NCBI GenBank assembly: GCA_036397555.1
Contig: DASWIS010000018.1
Span: forward strand, 1 to 35,147
Direction of reading: 5' to 3'
Length of the DNA: 35,147 nucleotides
Source: Candidatus Zixiibacteriota bacterium
GTDB taxonomy: Bacteria; Zixibacteria; MSB-5A5; WJJR01
The notes under the pieces are model-generated. The model searched no databases and was not told the origin of the DNA. It was given only the letters and a program-made list of their open reading frames with translations. Below are positions 16,437-32,482 of this stretch, piece after piece; the stretch's first letter is position 1; each line of letters opens with the position of its first letter. The position numbers were made by a program, and so were the translations under genes.

Positions 16437-16720
16437 CGTGCCCTGAGGGGGCAACTTGAAGTGCTAAGACGACACAGAAGTGCAAGAAACCGCTTGCATA
16501 GGCCGAATAGGCCATTATCCTGAGGATAGGAGTCATTACCTGACTTGTCCAAGAGTGGGCAGAAGGCAGAGCCACCAATCAAGGTCTCCTCCTTATCCCA
16601 ACAAACCTGGGTGTGAGCATAGCTTGGTCTCGCGCCAGGACTTCCCATCGACCGGTTCGGCACGTTGTTTGTACGATACTCAAGTATTCCGAAATGACGA
16701 GAATCGGGGACTGCCGAAAT
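16437..16720. other. Intergenic region before the disrupted gene
   Basis: No gene with recognisable features is seen. The frame of the disrupted gene is open through part of this stretch, but the signal peptide places its start at 16721. The region should hold that gene's promoter, which I could not pinpoint. Confidence 0.5.
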
Positions 16721-17137
16721 ATGTCGGCGTGCGCGCACTGTCGCCGCATTTCTTGGGCAGTGGTCGGGCTGGTTCTTGGCCTTTCCATCGCAGCGTCGGA
16801 TGCAACTGATTCTCGCGTGCACGATCGTCCGATAGCTGATGGTAAGCGTTGGGTCGACGAGCCGATTGTAACGCGAGACGGATTGGTATGGACATTTCGC
16901 GCAGGACCCGATGGGTCGAGTCGCGCCGCAAATGTCGCGGGGTCAAGTTGTCCGTCGTTAATCGAAATCCTGCTTCCAGAGCAATACATGGCGCATCGAT
17001 ATGACAGTGTGCGCGGTGTAACGGAAATCTACTGCCCTGACTACAATATCGACTCCATGATCAGATTTGATGTAGACTCCCAACTCAATGTCACCATGAC
17101 GCCGCTGGGTGTCCCGCCAGGTATACCTTGGATTGTT
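16721..17137 (+). pseudogene. 5' part of secreted FG-GAP/dockerin-like protein gene, split by transposon
   Basis: This fragment encodes 139 residues. The start ATG at 16721 has GGGGA about 10 nt upstream and opens a signal peptide (RRISWAVVGLVLGLSIAAS). The reading frame continues six codons into the transposon's left inverted repeat and stops at TGA 17153-17155. Removing the transposon and one copy of the 8 bp duplication joins codons ATT GTT directly to GCC GAC at 19478. That restores one frame of 513 residues ending at 20602, so the gene was intact until a recent insertion. The fragment alone would be exported but lacks the repeats and tail. An in-frame ATG at 16694 is a weaker alternative start. 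Confidence 0.85.
17130..17137. repeat. Left 8 bp target-site duplication (GGATTGTT)
   Basis: GGATTGTT directly precedes the left inverted repeat and recurs directly after the right one at 19470-19477. Eight to nine bp duplications are typical for IS1-family transposition. Confidence 0.92.
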
Positions 17138-17156
17138 GGTAGTGGGTCAGTTTGAA
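17138..17156. repeat. Left terminal inverted repeat
   Basis: GGTAGTGGGTCAGTTTGAA is repeated without mismatch, inverted, at 19451-19469. The transposase stop codon (TGA, minus strand, 17147-17149) and the premature stop of the disrupted host frame (TGA, 17153-17155) both lie inside this repeat. Confidence 0.95.
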
Positions 17157-17998
17157 TCTTTCTGAGTTTCATTCTTCTCCAACCGCGCCACAATATCAGC
17201 AATCGACCAGACCCGATTGGTCACTTTCGCTTCCATCGCGGGAGTGACGCGCAAGGTCTGGTGAATCCGGCAGAAATTGTAGTGCATGAAATGGAGCGCT
17301 ACGGCGTGTTCGAGGTTCTCGATCTTCTTTGAGAAGGCATTGGTCAACCGCGTGAATCGACGCATCGACATGCGCATGGTCAGATTTTGGCGTTCGACCA
17401 TCGAGGTTGATACGGCCTTCTTTTCCGGCTTCCCCGACACGCGCTTGCGGCGACAGCCGATGCACTTGGGCGGGCTGTAGCGGGCTTCTCCGGCTTGCTC
17501 CTTGCCGTAGAGCTTCACCAGCATGGCGTAATCTACATCAGCCCCGAATGCGGCTTCGACGGCTTCCAGATAGACCGAATGGCCGTCTGTTGTGATCTGA
17601 ACGCGATTGGCAAGACGTGACGCCACATCCGCCATGAAGGTCTTGCCCCATTCGGCATTGCGAAGCCCGACCAGATACGACACGATCAACTTGGTGTCCG
17701 GGTCCATCGCGGTCCACGTCCATACATCCCCGAAGCCGAAGCACCCCTGTTTGTCGGCGGGCACATTCTTCTGTTTGGCGTAGCAGAAAGACCAGATTTC
17801 GTCACACTGGATGCGTTTACAGGTCAGATTACGAAGCGCCTTGTGCTGGTACTCAGAGCACACCGCGCCAACATCGGCCAGCAGTTTGACGACCGTGTTC
17901 TTGGCGACACCCGTCATTCGGCACGTTGCCCGGATGGAGTTTCCCTCGACCAAGGCCGCTATGATGGCAGTGCGCTTCTCTGGTGTTAGCTGATTCAT
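17147..17998 (-). CDS. IS1-family DDE transposase
   Basis: The 283-residue protein begins LTPEKRTAIIAALVEGNSIR, a helix-turn-helix for end binding (about residues 8-45). The catalytic core shows CDEIWSF (D66), TTDGHSVY (D138) and VERQNLTMRM (E202), the IS1-type DDE arrangement by family knowledge, and a late CRIHQTLR motif. It would cut and join the 19 bp inverted repeats. A cysteine pair (CIGC, residues 179-182) may bind metal. The coding frame is intact and single, without the programmed frameshift of classical E. coli IS1. The start ATG lies only 8 nt beyond a perfect -10 box, so the mRNA may be leaderless. The stop codon is within the left inverted repeat. Confidence 0.93.
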   Translation of the reverse strand: MNQLTPEKRTAIIAALVEGNSIRATCRMTGVAKNTVVKLLADVGAVCSEYQHKALRNLTCKRIQCDEIWSFCYAKQKNVPADKQGCFGFGDVWTWTAMDPDTKLIVSYLVGLRNAEWGKTFMADVASRLANRVQITTDGHSVYLEAVEAAFGADVDYAMLVKLYGKEQAGEARYSPPKCIGCRRKRVSGKPEKKAVSTSMVERQNLTMRMSMRRFTRLTNAFSKKIENLEHAVALHFMHYNFCRIHQTLRVTPAMEAKVTNRVWSIADIVARLEKNETQKDSN

Positions 17999-18006
17999 TC
18001 TGACCT

Positions 18007-18035
18007 ATTATACAAGAGCGGTTACGCATAGTCAA
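18007..18035 (-). promoter_or_regulatory. Strong sigma-70 promoter for the transposase
   Basis: On the minus strand TTGACT (18035-18030) and TATAAT (18012-18007) are separated by exactly 17 nt. The ATG of the transposase begins 8 nt after the -10 box, at about the expected transcription start. Confidence 0.8.
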
Positions 18036-18222
18036 GTAGAATCATATCAGTGACCGACTTTTCCCATACTGCGCGACGAAACTATCGGATGATTGGCATT
18101 TCGGCAAACGTTCAACCTATTGACCGATAGCATGTTAAATGACTTCATGCTACGCGGTGCCAATCACCTGAGAAAAAAAGGTTGCGCAAGCGCTATGTTC
18201 TCGCGATGTTCTGGATGTAACC

Positions 18223-18266
18223 GCTACGGCCCCGTGAACTCTTGTGGGAGAGGATGGGGCCGTAGC
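18223..18266 (+). ncRNA. Long hairpin in transposon non-coding region
   Basis: GCTACGGCCCC (18223-18233) pairs perfectly with GGGGCCGTAGC (18256-18266) over a 22 nt loop. It belongs to a hairpin-rich stretch between the transposase promoter and the winged-helix gene. It could be part of a leader RNA of that gene, a small RNA, or a DNA structure used in transposition. Strand is assigned by the downstream gene and is uncertain. Confidence 0.4.
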
Positions 18267-18304
18267 AGAAAGGCAGAGTGCCATGAGGAGATATTAGGCC
18301 CTCG

Positions 18305-18316
18305 TGCCGTACGGCA
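18305..18316. repeat. 12 bp perfect palindrome in the transposon
   Basis: TGCCGTACGGCA reads the same on both strands. It lies about 100 bp before the winged-helix gene and could be a binding site for a dimeric regulator, perhaps that gene's own product (inference). Confidence 0.4.
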
Positions 18317-18333
18317 TCGGTCAGCGCGTGGGC

Positions 18334-18374
18334 CATGAGGAATGGGCCGGGATTACCCGGCCCTCCCCCTCATG
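18334..18374 (+). ncRNA. Nested two-stem hairpin before the winged-helix gene
   Basis: An outer stem CATGAGG (18334-18340) with CCTCATG (18368-18374) encloses an inner 8 bp stem GGGCCGGG (18344-18351) with CCCGGCCC (18356-18363) and an ATTA loop. It ends 43 nt before the winged-helix start and 30 nt before its Shine-Dalgarno. It may be an attenuator or leader structure. No riboswitch class is recognised. Confidence 0.45.
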
Positions 18375-18416
18375 ACGTCGGGAATCTAATCATTAACTTG
18401 ACCAGGGGCAACGGCT

Positions 18417-18917
18417 ATGATGAAAGAAGAAAGCAAAGAACGAACATGGACGATCGCCGATCTGGAAGCATTACGTTCACAGATTGATGCGGCGATTGGA
18501 ATCCTGAAGCAACTCGAAGGATCGGCCTCGGGCGGATCAAAGACTGACGGCATTCTCAATTCCCTGCCATCCCCGCCAATAGAAAATAGTCGCGACAATG
18601 ACCACGATGTTGATATACGGTCAGATGCGTTTTTTGGACTCAGTTTTACGGATGCGACTTATAAGTATCTTCAAATGATCCGACGGCCGCAGACGACTGA
18701 GGCAATCTGTGAGGCACTTCAGAAGGGTGGGATTGAATCGAAATCGCAGAACTTCTTAATCACTGTCTACAGTAGTCTGCGACGTGATGCCCGGCGATTT
18801 GTGCGAGTTAAGAAGAAAGAATGGGGCTTGGTCGAATGGTATCCAACTCGACCGCAGGCTGGAAAGACGCCAAAGGACGAGGGGATTGAGAAGCCGACAC
18901 GAAAACGAAAAAAATAA
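18417..18917 (+). CDS. Transposon cargo protein with winged-helix (HARE-HTH-like) domain
   Basis: The 166-residue protein has two parts. Residues 1 to about 50 are charged and helical (WTIADLEALRSQIDAAIGIL), possibly a coiled coil for dimerisation. After a low-complexity linker, residues about 80-150 (DAFFGLSFTDATYKYLQMIRR, then TEAICEALQKGG and WGLVEWYP) resemble the HARE-HTH-type winged helix found in bacterial regulators and nucleases. The tail is lysine/arginine-rich. The start at 18417 has AGGGG 8 nt upstream. It probably binds DNA or RNA and may regulate the transposon or its cargo. The hairpins upstream may be its leader. The family assignment is from memory of the motif pattern, so function is tentative. 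Confidence 0.75.
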   Translation: MMKEESKERTWTIADLEALRSQIDAAIGILKQLEGSASGGSKTDGILNSLPSPPIENSRDNDHDVDIRSDAFFGLSFTDATYKYLQMIRRPQTTEAICEALQKGGIESKSQNFLITVYSSLRRDARRFVRVKKKEWGLVEWYPTRPQAGKTPKDEGIEKPTRKRKK

Positions 18918-18947
18918 ACCGGGGACATGGACCTTAATGTCCCCGGT
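18906..18947 (-). terminator. Bidirectional hairpin, best as minus-strand terminator
   Basis: An 11 bp stem ACCGGGGACAT (18918-18928) with ATGTCCCCGGT (18937-18947) has an 8 nt loop. On the minus strand it is followed by a T-rich tract (complement of the A-run at 18906-18917), so it should stop transcription coming from the KGG gene. On the plus strand it sits just after the winged-helix stop but lacks a T-run. A further 7 bp stem (18956-18962 with 18968-18974) lies beside it. Confidence 0.7.
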
Positions 18948-19042
18948 ATTACGGTCTCACTCAGCGTGAGTGAGCAATTGCCTGCTATCTATTATATCGT
19001 GTCTTGGAATCGATTTTGCAAAGAATTCTCGAAAGAAATTGT

Positions 19043-19115
19043 GGGGGCGTAGCTCAGCGGATAGAGCAGTTGCCTGCTAAGCAACAGGTCGGGAGTTCGA
19101 TGCTCCCCGCCCCCA
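19043..19115 (+). tRNA. Transposon-borne tRNA, anticodon GCU, class I with arginine-like body
   Basis: A complete 73 nt cloverleaf is visible. The acceptor stem GGGGGCG/CGCCCCC (19043-19049 with 19108-19114) is perfect. The D arm is GCTC/GAGC with loop AGCGGATA. The anticodon arm GTTGC/GCAAC has loop CTGCTAA, with anticodon GCT at 19076-19078. The variable loop is AGGTC, only 5 nt. The T arm GGGAG/CTCCC has loop TTCGATG. The discriminator is A19115 and no CCA is encoded. GCU reads the serine codons AGC and AGU, but bacterial serine tRNAs have a long variable arm, which is absent. The body resembles tRNA-Arg: A20 in the D-loop, C35, U36 and A73 are arginine identity features known from E. coli. 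It differs from a tRNA-Arg(UCU) anticodon loop only at the wobble base. It is probably arginylated if expressed, or it is a decoy. Confidence 0.9.
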
Positions 19116-19130
19116 CGCAACCACAACCGT

Positions 19131-19403
19131 TTATGCCGTATTAGATTGGCGTTTTTTCCACCTTGCCTTAGCCGCCTTCCTCGCCGCCTCGGATCGTTGC
19201 TTCTTTGTGGTGCCCTTCCATCGAGCCTTGCCGCCCTTCAAGCCCCCACGCCGCCCCAATTCGACGGCTGCTGGGTCTTTGCCTTCATCTTCAGGCGTTG
19301 GCTCCGGCGGTGCCTGATCCGTAGCGTGGTCCGTGATCGACTTGGCCAGCTCGTTTACATCGAGCTTCTTGCCCGGTTTTCTTTTGCGAGAGCGGTCTGG
19401 CAT
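19131..19403 (-). CDS. Small KGG-motif basic protein (histone-H1-like)
   Basis: This 90-residue protein is very basic. It begins PDRSRKRKPGKKLDVNELAK, has an acidic proline-rich middle, then AVELGRRGGLKGGKARWKG and a lysine/alanine-rich tail (KKQRSEAARKAAKARWKKR). The GRRGGLKGGKARW box is the KGG-type motif seen in small stress-induced or histone-H1-like bacterial proteins, a family of unknown biochemical role that plausibly binds nucleic acid. It is encoded within the transposon, on the strand opposite the tRNA and ending 15 bp from it. The start ATG is at 19401-19403, with a GTG one codon earlier. The hairpin at 18906-18947 would terminate its transcript after reading antisense through the tRNA. 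Confidence 0.75.
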   Translation of the reverse strand: MPDRSRKRKPGKKLDVNELAKSITDHATDQAPPEPTPEDEGKDPAAVELGRRGGLKGGKARWKGTTKKQRSEAARKAAKARWKKRQSNTA

Positions 19404-19450
19404 CACTCAATGATACGCACAGACCGAAGATTTGTCTATAGGGCTGAGAT

Positions 19451-19469
19451 TTCAAACTGACCCACTACC
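19451..19469. repeat. Right terminal inverted repeat
   Basis: TTCAAACTGACCCACTACC is the exact reverse complement of 17138-17156 and marks the right end of the transposon. Confidence 0.95.
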
Positions 19470-19477
19470 GGATTGTT
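19470..19477. repeat. Right 8 bp target-site duplication (GGATTGTT)
   Basis: This is the second copy of the duplicated target, identical to 17130-17137. Identity of both copies suggests a recent insertion. Confidence 0.92.
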
Positions 19478-20602
19478 GCCGACCTTGACAACGACGGCAA
19501 CATTGAATTGGTTACACAGATTAGTGCCGATCTCAACGTCTACTCCGCGCCGGACTGGACGCACAGAGCCCGTTCGGAGTGGCCGGGGATGAATATCGTC
19601 ATGAACGCCGAGACCGTCAATGTGGACGGCGATTCCTACCTCGAGATATTCGCGATACCGCACTGGATCGGGACATCGCGCGCCGTCATCATCAAGTATG
19701 ACGATGCCTTGGACACGTTCAAAGTCATCTCCGACATCGATGCGCCGGAGTGGTCGCGCGGAGAAGCTGCGATCGCGGATTTCGACGAGGATGGGCGAAT
19801 GGAGTTCATCGCGGGGAACGACCTTGGCTATGCCCTGTATGAGTGGCAGGAAACCTCACTTGTGTACGTGGGCCAGGTAGGGGGACTTGCAGAGGGCATT
19901 GAGTTGTACGCCACTCCCGTCAAACCATACCCTGGAGGAGTGCTTCACGCCCTATTGAGTCATGCGGGAGGATCCTGCCGATACGAGATAATCGCAGCGG
20001 TTGGCGACAATGTCTTTGAGATTGTCGACAGTATTGTCGAGCAGACTGGCTTTACGGGGTACGCGCCTTGTCTCGGGAGGGACTCCGACTGCGATGGGGT
20101 GGACGAAATGACGATGACTTTCTCCCCCTTGTATAAGGTGTATCAATGGGATACGGCAACCCAAGCTTTTGTGGAAAGTTGTCAATGGCATGAAAACGAT
20201 ATCGGCGGGCAAGTCAAATGGTATTCTCTCGACCTCGACCAGGACGGCACGGCCGAATGGGGAACCATAAACCACAACTTCGTTTTCTACGACTTCCCCG
20301 GCCCTGAATGCGTTTTCTGTGACTCTGTAGGACATTGCTTGTACGCCGACAGCACCTGCTACTGTTTCTGCTTCGGCGATCCGCAGTGTGACAGCGTGAC
20401 CAATGTCTTCGATGTGGTCAAGTCTGTCGATGTGGCTTTCCGAAGCGCGCCTCCCGTCGGCGACACGTACCCCCTCTGCCCGCAGGATCGCACCGATGTC
20501 ACTTGTGATGGTGTGACGAACGTCTTCGATGTGGTCGCGTTTGTTGATGTTGCATTTCGCAGCGCTAATCCCTCGACGGCTTTTTGCAATCCCTGCCCGT
20601 AG
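19478..20602 (+). pseudogene. 3' part of secreted FG-GAP/dockerin-like protein gene, split by transposon
   Basis: This 374-residue continuation is in frame with the 5' fragment once the transposon is removed. It holds FG-GAP/VCBS-type calcium-binding repeats (VADLDNDGNIELVTQ, IADFDEDGRMEFIAG), usual in secreted beta-propellers. It ends in the duplicated dockerin-like tail: QCDSVTNVFDVVKSVDVAFRS and TCDGVTNVFDVVAFVDVAFRS, closing with CNPCP. The tail parallels that of the subtilase at 9449-11812. Without the signal peptide and a promoter this part is probably not made or exported, although read-through from the transposon cannot be excluded. An internal TTG at 19508 could start translation in principle. 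Confidence 0.85.
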
Positions 20603-26931: not shown

Positions 26932-27528
26932 CTACGTGTCGCTGAATTCAATCTCGATGCCCTTACCGGCCTCGAGTTTTCGACAGTAAACCAGTTCGGC
27001 GTCCTCCGGGAGCGTTTCCTGAAGCTCGCCTCTCTTGGTCCTGTACGTATCGGGCTTGATGCAGACAGGTTTGTCCCCAACGAATCCGTCGATACCTCGT
27101 GATTCCTCCTCAGCGTTCGCCAGCCGGTACTCGACGTCCCGATGCTCGGCAATGAATCTTAGGATCGCCTGTTGAAACTTCAGTCCAATGAAAGTCTTGA
27201 CGATGACAAGGTCTTCGACCCATCTCTTGACCATCGGTCGGTCCACGGTCGCGATGGCCACCCTGAGTGCTTGTAGTTGTGCCAGTATCTTCTCAGTTGC
27301 CTGATCGATACTCGCAGGGCGTGTTTCGTTATACCAGTCCCGCCACTCCTCCAGCGTGCTTCCCGCGAACTCCTGGATCAGGTCGCTCATCTGGCCCACG
27401 ACACGCGGCCGTGTCCCCTGGGAAAACTTGTTTGCGAGGTTGATGAGTGGCCAGACGTACTTGGGAAAGTCTTCTGTGCGGACGTCGAGAAGGATCTTAA
27501 GGTCTTCGGAGCTAAGTCTAAGTTTCAC
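26932..27528 (-). CDS. MjaI-like type II restriction endonuclease (predicted CTAG)
   Basis: The 198-residue protein has the pattern I recall for the MjaI endonuclease family: INLANKFSQGTRPRVVGQMSDL in the N-terminal half and VEDLVIVKTFIGLKFQQAIL in the middle. The C-terminal part holds GIDGFVGDKPVCIKPDTYRTK, with D147 and K158 as likely PD-(D/E)XK-type metal and catalytic residues. MjaI cuts CTAG. It begins 15 bp after the adjacent methyltransferase on the same strand, the normal layout for a type II pair; GTG at 27526-27528 is the start, with no clear Shine-Dalgarno, so coupling to the upstream gene is likely. It supports defence against unmodified DNA. Family recognition is by eye. Confidence 0.8.
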   Translation of the reverse strand: MKLRLSSEDLKILLDVRTEDFPKYVWPLINLANKFSQGTRPRVVGQMSDLIQEFAGSTLEEWRDWYNETRPASIDQATEKILAQLQALRVAIATVDRPMVKRWVEDLVIVKTFIGLKFQQAILRFIAEHRDVEYRLANAEEESRGIDGFVGDKPVCIKPDTYRTKRGELQETLPEDAELVYCRKLEAGKGIEIEFSDT

Positions 27529-27543
27529 GCGGCGAAGAAACGG

Positions 27544-28479
27544 TTACGTTACCAATGCGGCAACCGGTTTCGGATTCGCCTCAGCGGTGACGAAAAGGAC
27601 TTGGGAATCATCAAAGAGATTGCCGGAGTCACCGGCCAGCTTGCGCCTGATAACGGTCTCAAATGTGGTGTTGATCTCAACACCAATTGAGTGTCGTCCC
27701 TCGATTTTTGCCGCAAGTGAAGTGGTGCCGCTCCCCAGAAACGGGTCGAGAACCGTTTCGCCCCAGAAGCTGTACATCTTGATCAGACGCCGGGGCACTT
27801 CGACCGGAAACATGGCGCCGTGTTCTTCCTGGCGGTCCGGGTGAATAGACCAGACTCCTCGAAACCACTCGCTCCGCTGTTCCTTGGTCAGGCGACTGCG
27901 CTCTCTTTGTTCCTCCGAAACAGATGGCGCGTTGCCCGGCTTCTTGAGCAGGATGATGTACTCGTGCTCGTAGGTAATGTGGCCATCACGGGGATGATAC
28001 GTTGAGCCCATCCACTGCCCGCCGCCGCTCGTCTTCGTTGTCGAAATCTTCCTCCAAATGATGTTTCCCATGAAATCGAATCCCAGTCGCCGGGCGACGC
28101 AAATGATGTCTGCCGGGATCGGCTGAACGCGGTATCTGCCATGCTCTGTCGCGCGCAGGTACTGATCGCCGATGTTGATGGCTGCCCGGCAGCCCCCACT
28201 GAGAACGCGCCGAATCTCCATCAACACTCGTTCAAGGTCTGCAAGATAGTCTTCGTACGATTGACCGTGGCCAATTTGGTCGGGGTGATCATAATCCTTG
28301 ATCGACCAGTACGGCGGAGACGTCACAACGAGTTGAATCGACTCGTTGTCGACTAAGTCCATGTGACGGCTATCGCCGAAGACGATCCGGTGGTTCGTCG
28401 AATTCCTTCGAACAAGTCCGTCTGACATTCTGCCGCCTTCTGCGCCCGTCATTATCCGTCGTTCAACATTGAATTCCAT
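27544..28479 (-). CDS. Type II DNA methyltransferase, beta class, probably N4-cytosine (CTAG)
   Basis: The 311-residue protein shows TSPPYWS (residues 53-59), the catalytic motif IV, ahead of the AdoMet-binding DPFLGSGTT (245-253), which is the beta-class order. SPPY rather than DPPY favours N4-cytosine modification, as in the MjaI-type CTAG enzymes. The context YWSIKDYDHPDQIGHGQSYE also fits that group. It should protect host CTAG sites from the endonuclease encoded just downstream. The frame opens at 28479, but the ATG at 28426-28428 (MSDGLVRRN) has AAGGCGG upstream and may be the true start. It lies 88 bp beyond the stop of the 28568-31177 gene, on the same strand. Confidence 0.88.
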   Translation of the reverse strand: MEFNVERRIMTGAEGGRMSDGLVRRNSTNHRIVFGDSRHMDLVDNESIQLVVTSPPYWSIKDYDHPDQIGHGQSYEDYLADLERVLMEIRRVLSGGCRAAINIGDQYLRATEHGRYRVQPIPADIICVARRLGFDFMGNIIWRKISTTKTSGGGQWMGSTYHPRDGHITYEHEYIILLKKPGNAPSVSEEQRERSRLTKEQRSEWFRGVWSIHPDRQEEHGAMFPVEVPRRLIKMYSFWGETVLDPFLGSGTTSLAAKIEGRHSIGVEINTTFETVIRRKLAGDSGNLFDDSQVLFVTAEANPKPVAALVT

Positions 28480-31255: not shown

Positions 31256-32482
31256 TCACACATCCGGACCGTCATCGGTCTCTTCGGTCTCGATGCGCTT
31301 GAGATGAATGGTCGAGACGACCGATTCGCCGATGAGCCCACTCAGCCGCGCTTTCGTCGTGGAATCGAACATGTCGGTCTGGAGTGCCTTGGCGAGCTTG
31401 CGGCGCTCCAAGTCGGACACCTGATCCCATAGACCGCTGTCGCGCACCAGTTGTTCCAATTCAACGCGTTCAGGGTTTTTCTTGTCCGGCAGCTTCGGCT
31501 CGCGCCGTATGTTGACGGAGACACTGGCATGGTGTCCGGTGAGGCGGGTCAGATTCTCCGTGGCTGCGAATTTTAAGACCATTTGTTTCGCCGCTTCCAG
31601 TTCAGTCGTCGCCACGTCAACGCGCTGTTTGGCGGAGGCGTAGTCATCGGCGATGCGGACTCCATCGTCGGCGGCGAACTCTTCGGGCGTCATAGCCGCC
31701 GTGGCAAACTGGTGTCGTTTCGCGGGGCAGATCGACTGAAATTCGCACCAACTGCACAACGTCGACTCCTGTGGAGGAAAGTCGTTCCTGTCGGCGGCGG
31801 CGACGGCCGTGTCGATCAGGCGTCGGGTGTCATCCTTGAGTGCCTCGAGCGCCTCCCTGGTTCGAGTTGATGTCAGTGTGCGATTGGCACGCAGGTAGTG
31901 CCAGATGAGTCGGACCGGGCGCTCTTCGCGCCATCGTTGCTGGATGCCGATCTGGTACAGCGCCAACTGCCGTTCGCGATCGACATCGTCCTGCGTCGGC
32001 AGGGACCGCGATGTCTTGTAGTCGTGGATCTCAATCGTGCCGTCCTCGGCTTCGGCGAGTCGGTCGATGAATCCCTGCAGACGGTACGCGCCGGAGCCGT
32101 CCAGATCGATCAACACCCGGTCTTCGAGCGCCAAAACACGTCCATCGGAAAATGGGTAGTTCCGCACGAAGTAGTCCTGCAGGCAACGTCGGCCGACATT
32201 GCGGTAGTCCTGCGCGGTGAACTCGGGCCGGACGATGAAAACGTCATCGCCGAGGTTTTTGTCCCAGTAGCGCTCATAGAAGTCCCGCACCTCCTCCCAC
32301 TTCGGGGTGCGTTCCATCAGAACCGACTGGTAGAGCGATTCCAGCGCGTCATGGACCGCCTTGCCCATGAACGCCTCAATCGAGGTGCGTCGTTCGATAT
32401 CGGGCTTCTCGATGTACCGGAAGGCGTACTTGCGCGGACACTGCTCGTACGACGACAGCCGGCTATGGGAGTACAGAGTCAT
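31256..32482 (-). CDS. RecB/Cas4-like PD-(D/E)XK nuclease with Fe-S cluster motif
   Basis: The 408-residue protein begins YSHSRLSSYEQCPRKYAFRY. Cysteines C15, C243, C246 and C252 (SSYEQC, then LCSWCEFQSIC) form the four-cysteine iron-sulfur pattern of Cas4, AddB and related nucleases. The nuclease core shows H44, D140 (GFIDRL), D154 and K156 (IHDYKTSR) and a QLALY motif (residues 172-176). It probably resects or trims DNA ends. Cas4 is usually shorter, and this protein has about 150 residues of extra C-terminal sequence. There are no CRISPR genes or arrays in the window, so a general DNA-repair or recombination role is preferred over Cas4. It diverges from the 32701 gene; a hairpin lies 20 bp upstream of its start. 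Confidence 0.9.
   Translation of the reverse strand: MTLYSHSRLSSYEQCPRKYAFRYIEKPDIERRTSIEAFMGKAVHDALESLYQSVLMERTPKWEEVRDFYERYWDKNLGDDVFIVRPEFTAQDYRNVGRRCLQDYFVRNYPFSDGRVLALEDRVLIDLDGSGAYRLQGFIDRLAEAEDGTIEIHDYKTSRSLPTQDDVDRERQLALYQIGIQQRWREERPVRLIWHYLRANRTLTSTRTREALEALKDDTRRLIDTAVAAADRNDFPPQESTLCSWCEFQSICPAKRHQFATAAMTPEEFAADDGVRIADDYASAKQRVDVATTELEAAKQMVLKFAATENLTRLTGHHASVSVNIRREPKLPDKKNPERVELEQLVRDSGLWDQVSDLERRKLAKALQTDMFDSTTKARLSGLIGESVVSTIHLKRIETEETDDGPDV

Follow-up and report, generated by a model that had tools for sequence, protein, structure and literature searches.

By analogy, the closest known system to the tRNA described here is tRNA-ProX of Streptomyces. The tRNA-ProX genes (tRNA-ProA, tRNA-ProN and tRNA-ProT) of Streptomyces and Kitasatospora join the body of one isotype to the anticodon of another; mistranslation by them has been reported in E. 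coli, and some members depart from U33 (PMC10365949, PMC11415595). The tRNA found in the window (the whole stretch of 35,147 nucleotides analysed) may be placed in this dual-identity class, from which it differs in its amino acids, in the absence of a linked synthetase and in being the cargo of a transposon. tRNA-ProX has a tRNA-Pro body, A33, A34 and a linked (partial) synthetase gene, whereas the window tRNA is Arg-type, has U33 and G34, and lacks a linked synthetase. The related transposon tRNAs likewise differ from tRNA-ProX, using Arg, Leu, Ser, Ala and Glu bodies and being carried by a transposon found in several phyla.

Two further systems offer partial likenesses. The tRNA-Ser(CAG) of the Candida CUG clade keeps its identity under a foreign anticodon, is served by an anticodon-blind synthetase and has an altered base 33 (PMC11415595), but it is chromosomal and fixed in its clade, is neither mobile nor bacterial, and concerns other amino acids. 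In recoded phages with suppressor tRNAs (PMC10879173), a mobile genome also supplies a tRNA that changes the meaning of a codon; the phage genes, however, use the recoded stop codon, while here the transposase is independent of its own tRNA and mostly sense codons are affected. We found no papers on transposon-carried tRNAs in the literature covered, which did not include most subscription journals and preprints.

The window tRNA and its carrier transposon

We identified the tRNA within a complete IS1-like transposon that interrupts a host gene. The features of the element and its insertion site are as follows.

16613-17129, forward strand: 5' part of an FG-GAP-repeat gene, interrupted by the transposon (open frame across the joined flanks)
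17130-17137, no strand: left copy of the target-site duplication, GGATTGTT, identical to 19470-19477
17138-17156, forward strand: left terminal inverted repeat, GGTAGTGGGTCAGTTTGAA, 100% complementary to 19451-19469
17147-17998, reverse strand: IS1-like DDE transposase, 283 aa, single intact ORF (PF03400, NF033558, relatives)
18007-18035, reverse strand: sigma-70-like transposase promoter, TTGACT-17-TATAAT (11/12 consensus matches)
18417-18917, forward strand: 166-aa passenger protein with a short coiled coil and a winged helix, HARE-HTH / RNAP-delta-like (profile matches below cut-off)
18918-18947, no strand: hairpin between the winged-helix gene and the tRNA (11-bp stem; T run after the stem on the reverse strand only)
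18960-18987, forward strand: imperfect 28-nt repeat of tRNA positions 11-38, spanning the D arm to the anticodon loop (local alignment, repeat search D4)
19043-19115, forward strand: tRNA with anticodon GCU, Ser AGC/AGU (ARAGORN, Rfam, identity set, masked-anticodon profiles)
19131-19406, reverse strand: 91-aa basic passenger protein, ..DVNELAKSI..GRRGGLKGGKAR.. (passenger cluster membership)
19133-19152, forward strand: terminator-like hairpin directly 3' of the tRNA (6-bp stem, then TTTTT)
19410-19438, reverse strand: promoter-like site of the 91-aa gene, TAGACA-17-TATCAT (sequence match)
19451-19469, reverse strand: right terminal inverted repeat (complement of the left repeat)
19470-19477, no strand: right copy of the target-site duplication, GGATTGTT, identical to the left copy
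19470-20602, forward strand: 3' part of the interrupted gene, with an FG-GAP repeat and two DVAFR-type repeats at its end (PF01839, repeat D1)

An earlier note, made from the sequence alone, had called the tRNA transposon-carried, and this can now be made exact: the element spans 17138-19469 (2332 bp), has perfect 19-nt terminal inverted repeats and is flanked by the 8-bp duplication GGATTGTT. Its ends, GGTAGTGNNTCAGTTTGA, are common to most related elements. When the flanks are joined without the element, the FG-GAP frame is open again (...IPWIVADLDNDGNIELVTQ...), indicating a clean insertion; the PF01839 match on the 3' part of this gene (21 bits) lies just below the cut-off. The element resembles the IS1 family in ends that begin with GG and in its 8-bp target duplication (8-9 bp in that family). 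Its DDE transposase points to the same family less clearly, with one profile score just above cut-off and one below. The element differs from that family in its single uninterrupted transposase ORF, in a transposase that scores below the NCBIfam IS1 cut-off (57.7 bits against NF033558 transpos_IS1, cut-off 100), and in that related elements carry 1-2 kb of passenger genes, with a tRNA in a minority. The transposase scores just above the cut-off of PF03400 (26.8 bits, cut-off 24.1), and has relatives that are up to 78% identical.

The only ORFs of the element are those of the transposase and of the 166-aa and 91-aa proteins, and no synthetase gene was found in it. The matches of the 166-aa protein to TIGR04567 (27 bits, cut-off 42) and PF05066 (19.3 bits, cut-off 25.9) both fall short. 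In about a dozen carriers a small coiled-coil/winged-helix gene runs in the direction of the tRNA and ends 46-370 nt before it, which is suggestive of a fixed pairing of the two. Such a pairing was rejected, as some elements have the winged-helix gene and no tRNA, and as in four of the nearest relatives of the window's own copy the 91-aa gene follows directly after it. Of 125 clean elements, 98 have a member of the passenger cluster to which the 91-aa protein belongs, although shadow ORFs may have raised this figure. The sequence immediately before the tRNA showed no promoter-like site, and the hairpin at 19133-19152 is one of three terminator-like hairpins, where 1.4 would be expected by chance. 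Elsewhere in the window, an MjaI-type restriction endonuclease (26932-28479; PF09568, E 7e-59) adjoins an N6/N4 DNA methylase (PF01555), forming a restriction-modification pair, and a PD-(D/E)XK nuclease (PF12705) that also matches Cas4 weakly lies at 31256-32482.

The tRNA was called by ARAGORN as tRNA-Ser(gct) at 19043-19116, and matches Rfam RF00005 over 19043-19115 with 68.5 bits (gathering threshold 29, E 4e-13). The complete cloverleaf with perfect stems and the 5-nt variable loop, both reported in the earlier note, are borne out by direct reading: standard pairs occupy 21 of 21 stem positions (acceptor stem GGGGGCG/CGCCCCC, D stem GCUC/GAGC, anticodon stem GUUGC/GCAAC, T stem GGGAG/CUCCC), and the variable loop is AGGUC. 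The anticodon loop, CUGCUAA, keeps U33 and has G34, and CCA is absent from the gene. The sequence occurs only once in the window, and the signature GGAYAGAGC-N6-CURCUAA was found in one of 132 genomes of the class, the host genome of the window, and was absent from the other 131, which excludes chance. The 28-nt direct copy at 18960-18987 precedes the part of the tRNA that it matches by 92 bases and reaches a local alignment score of 19, equalled in none of 500 shuffles.

Among transposases whose host is named, the one nearest to that of the window comes from Candidatus Zixiibacteriota, and the organism was placed there on this basis. The host genome (2.63 Mb in 35 contigs, estimated to be 100% complete) encodes 42 other tRNAs. 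These include its own normal tRNA-Ser(GCU), 87 nt long and with a long arm, and three tRNA-Arg genes (CCG, CCU and UCU), so the window tRNA is an addition to the host repertoire.

Amino acid identity of the window tRNA

We compared the tRNA with a reference set of about 230 tRNAs from the host genome, its relatives and flanking loci, in which some isotypes are represented by small sets only. A is found at position 20 in 50 of 51 reference tRNA-Arg, against one of about 180 other tRNAs, and A20 is known as the main bacterial Arg determinant, together with C35, U36 or G36, and A73 or G73 (PMC9976931). All four of A20, C35, U36 and A73, as claimed beforehand, can be read directly in the window tRNA. 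With the anticodon masked, body-only profiles gave 48.3 bits for Lys, 45.1 for Arg and 41.9 for Thr; Pro was not among the five best, and the Ser profile gave no match. The body profile thus slightly prefers Lys to Arg, and the Arg assignment rests on identity nucleotides and not on overall likeness. The reading of an arginine identity under a serine anticodon, first put forward in the earlier note, is supported at the level of sequence: the Arg identity set is complete, and the outcome named in advance as refuting it, a Ser profile scoring above Arg, was not seen.

That the gene is a genuine tRNA-Ser which has lost its long arm and is served by SerRS is very improbable, as only the anticodon speaks for it. 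The masked body has no tRNA-Ser likeness; the long arm is absent, with a 5-nt variable loop in its place; A73 stands where tRNA-Ser has G73, and A20 is present. The host, moreover, already possesses a normal tRNA-Ser(GCU). A serine identity is therefore excluded as far as sequence can show.

Mismatched tRNAs in related transposons

We gathered relatives of the element by transposase similarity, shared ends and the tRNA signature, and screened them with a tRNA covariance model. The sample consists of metagenome assemblies and IMG/VR contigs, the hosts of the latter being unknown. We identified about 27 cases of tRNAs inside or directly beside members of the transposon family, roughly half of them within clean ends and a target duplication, and the others on truncated contigs or in partial elements, beside a transposase or one end. 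Body and anticodon disagree in 22 of the 25 tRNAs that could be assigned. The search for such tRNAs beside related transposases, proposed in the earlier note, thus yielded ten Arg-type tRNAs with GCU or ACU anticodons, the window tRNA included, and extended to other amino acids.

The ten (window, L054, L078, L187, L202, L223, L444, L456, L557 and L566) all have a short variable loop and an Arg-type D loop, and neither UCU nor CCU was seen among the Arg types. Three more Arg-type tRNAs carry CGU or CCC (L055, L317, L316). Leu bodies occur with the Pro anticodon UGG (L072, L173), the Ala anticodon UGC (L440) and the ochre-stop anticodon UUA (L279); Ser bodies with the Leu anticodon CAA (L198) and the ochre anticodon UUA (L323); an Ala body retaining G3-U70 with the Asp anticodon GUC (L177); and Glu bodies with the Thr anticodon AGU (L152) and the Ala anticodon UGC (L154). 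Gly bodies with matching Gly anticodons were found in L435, L439 and L452. SerRS, LeuRS and AlaRS do not read the anticodon, and seven of the nine non-Arg mismatches are of Ser, Leu or Ala type (P about 0.003, against a crude background). ArgRS reads positions 35 and 36, and it is at position 34 that the GCU/ACU tRNAs have been altered.

Several individual loci were observed alongside these. The two ochre suppressor-type tRNAs lie inside family elements (L279:10304-10386, Leu-type; L323:9080-9189, Ser-type), and L177:6963-7162 is a 200-bp non-autonomous element, with inverted repeats and the 8-bp duplication GATCAAGG, that consists mostly of the Ala-type tRNA. One family element (L145:2955-6975) is inserted in a dense tRNA array of a viral contig (23 tRNAs, several of them short or degenerate). 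GCU tRNAs with an Arg-type D loop also occur outside recognisable family elements on IMG/VR contigs (L552, L555, L556, L559, L560, L561 and L567), that of L560 adjoining an integrase-like gene. Candidate close plasmid copies of the window tRNA were dismissed, the three best matches, which were checked, being ordinary tRNA-Ala or tRNA-Lys.

Eleven Arg-type element bodies that were compared are only 46-76% identical pairwise, and the eight GCU/ACU tRNAs that were compared 52-76%. Across the ten GCU/ACU tRNAs, 97.6% of pair cells are standard, against 63% in shuffles, and two-sided changes occur at 17 of 21 pairs, against 11.4 in shuffles, a value reached by none of 500. These statistics show that the transposon tRNAs fold; they do not by themselves show selection by the element, since the tRNAs may each have had a separate host tRNA as their source. 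Carriage requires 14 changes on the transposase tree, against a mean of 14.5 with shuffled labels, with no extra clustering, a scatter that fits repeated gain or frequent loss of the tRNA.

Captured host tRNA genes in decay, without function and present by accident, would also give the scattered and mostly singular carriage that we observe, and such decay could be read into the degraded loops or arms of L117, L128 and L154 and into the truncated second copy in the window. We nevertheless consider this quite unlikely, because most bodies retain intact stems with compensatory variation, and because decay would not be expected to begin at the anticodon in some 22 of 25 tRNAs, or to produce ochre anticodons twice.

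Possible roles of the tRNA cargo

The tRNA may instead be kept for its shape or its charging, as a decoy or regulator that does not decode, for example as a sink for ArgRS, EF-Tu or an anticodon nuclease, or through RNase P processing of element transcripts. The anticodon would then be free to drift, as it is not read. Such a role is in keeping with C33 in five transposon tRNAs (L054, L055, L072, L152 and L456) and with the tRNA-like structures that accompany tRNAs in related elements, in which the D arm is truncated and the second helix long. It would also suit the frequent placement of the tRNA in the same orientation as the transposase, 80-230 nt ahead of it. However, the changes are not random, falling on position 34 in Arg types and on anticodon-blind families elsewhere, with GCU or ACU ten times; the window tRNA and most others retain U33; and the window tRNA cannot be a transposase leader, since it lies on the opposite strand. 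We regard a non-decoding role as unlikely, while not dismissing it.

These tRNA-like structures of related Zixibacterial elements lie upstream of the transposase, mostly next to the tRNA (L437:2498-2565, L440:2558-2626, L439:2517-2584, L450:1803-1870, L452:1882-1949, L435:1031-1099, L442:2352-2420 and L396:910-978). They have an Ala-type acceptor with G3-U70 and A73, a short D arm of 3-4 bp, a helix of about 9 bp with the 7-nt loop GUUUGCA, and a normal T arm. No specific Rfam match was found for them, and a tmRNA origin was rejected because the Rfam tmRNA scores (27-37 bits, against 43.7 for the host's ordinary tRNA-Ala) are non-specific.

Self-suppression, in which the transposase gene would need its own tRNA to be read correctly, would account for the linkage of the tRNA and for the variety of anticodons. 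It is scarcely credible in view of codon use, which does not support it: 148 of 150 relatives have Ser at the position of the sole AGY codon of the window transposase, TAA does not occur in frame in the transposase of L279, which carries an ochre tRNA, and the expected pattern is absent from every other carrier in the codon analysis. AGY-poor transposases are limited to the window and L054, those of L078, L223 and L444 not being poor, which argues against any general self-protection. Avoidance of AGY by the element as a whole was likewise discarded (Fisher P 0.41; the other GCU carriers show none).

We therefore return to decoding as the possible role. The reading that we propose, and hold to be evenly poised between right and wrong, is that the transposons carry chargeable suppressor tRNAs, whose low-level missense or nonsense suppression favours retention of the element. 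The gene, its transposon, its identity nucleotides, its recurrence and its structural constraint have been shown above; expression, charging and decoding are inferred, and the benefit is speculative. If transcribed, the window tRNA would be charged with arginine by the host ArgRS, and would then compete with the host tRNA-Ser(GCU) and put arginine at some of the AGC/AGU codons. The Leu, Ser, Ala and Glu identities with foreign sense or stop anticodons in related transposons represent the same recurrent type of cargo, most such chimeras belonging to families whose synthetase ignores the altered anticodon base. Low-level suppression might in turn alter the proteome of the host or of a rival element, so that the transposon is retained. 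In the host genes of the window, AGY accounts for 27% of Ser codons and for 1.75% of codons overall, suggesting that efficient decoding would be costly and that weak or conditional activity is more likely. A suppressor tRNA is also the most economical account: natural mistranslating tRNAs work on the same principle, and several depart from U33, which dampens decoding (PMC11415595), a pattern that C33 in five of the transposon tRNAs fits.

For the suppressor reading speak the complete Arg set, the want of Ser likeness in the window tRNA, the recurrent mismatches with their intact stems and their leaning towards anticodon-blind synthetases, the scattered carriage and the absence of the signature from the other 131 genomes of the class. 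Against it stand the lack of expression, charging or proteomic data and the slight preference of the body profile for Lys over Arg. The Glu-bodied chimeras (L152, L154) should be poor substrates for GluRS. We also count against it the Gly bodies with matching anticodons, the missing synthetase and promoter-like site, the want of general AGY self-protection and the occurrence of the winged-helix gene without the tRNA.

The ORF census of passenger genes contains clusters of XRE, RelE/HigB, DUF4065 and NYN type, named without a profile check. Reading by eye, likewise unchecked, added passengers that we take to be HigBA-like (L434, L438) and ImmA/IrrE plus XRE (L134) and, among L434, L438, L134, L316 and L557, presumably DUF4065 (Panacea-like) and SecB-like proteins. 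These unchecked names suggest toxin-antitoxin cargo in the transposon family. A further reading, which we advance tentatively and with more doubt than the suppressor reading itself, is that a widespread IS1-like family bears dedicated code-altering cargo, repeatedly re-evolved in different bodies, with mistranslation itself as the selfish trait and with sense and stop suppressor tRNAs riding beside toxin-antitoxin-like passengers.

Annotation based on the anticodon hides such genes, and the window tRNA would appear as an ordinary tRNA-Ser. Bacterial tRNAs of mismatched identity were known before from the tRNA-ProX of actinomycetes, and are now found as mobile cargo, with at least four other amino acids and stop codons. 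If these tRNAs are active, elements that spread horizontally could alter the way in which a cell interprets its code. This would be a route to ambiguous decoding, for which one normally looks only in chromosomes and phages.
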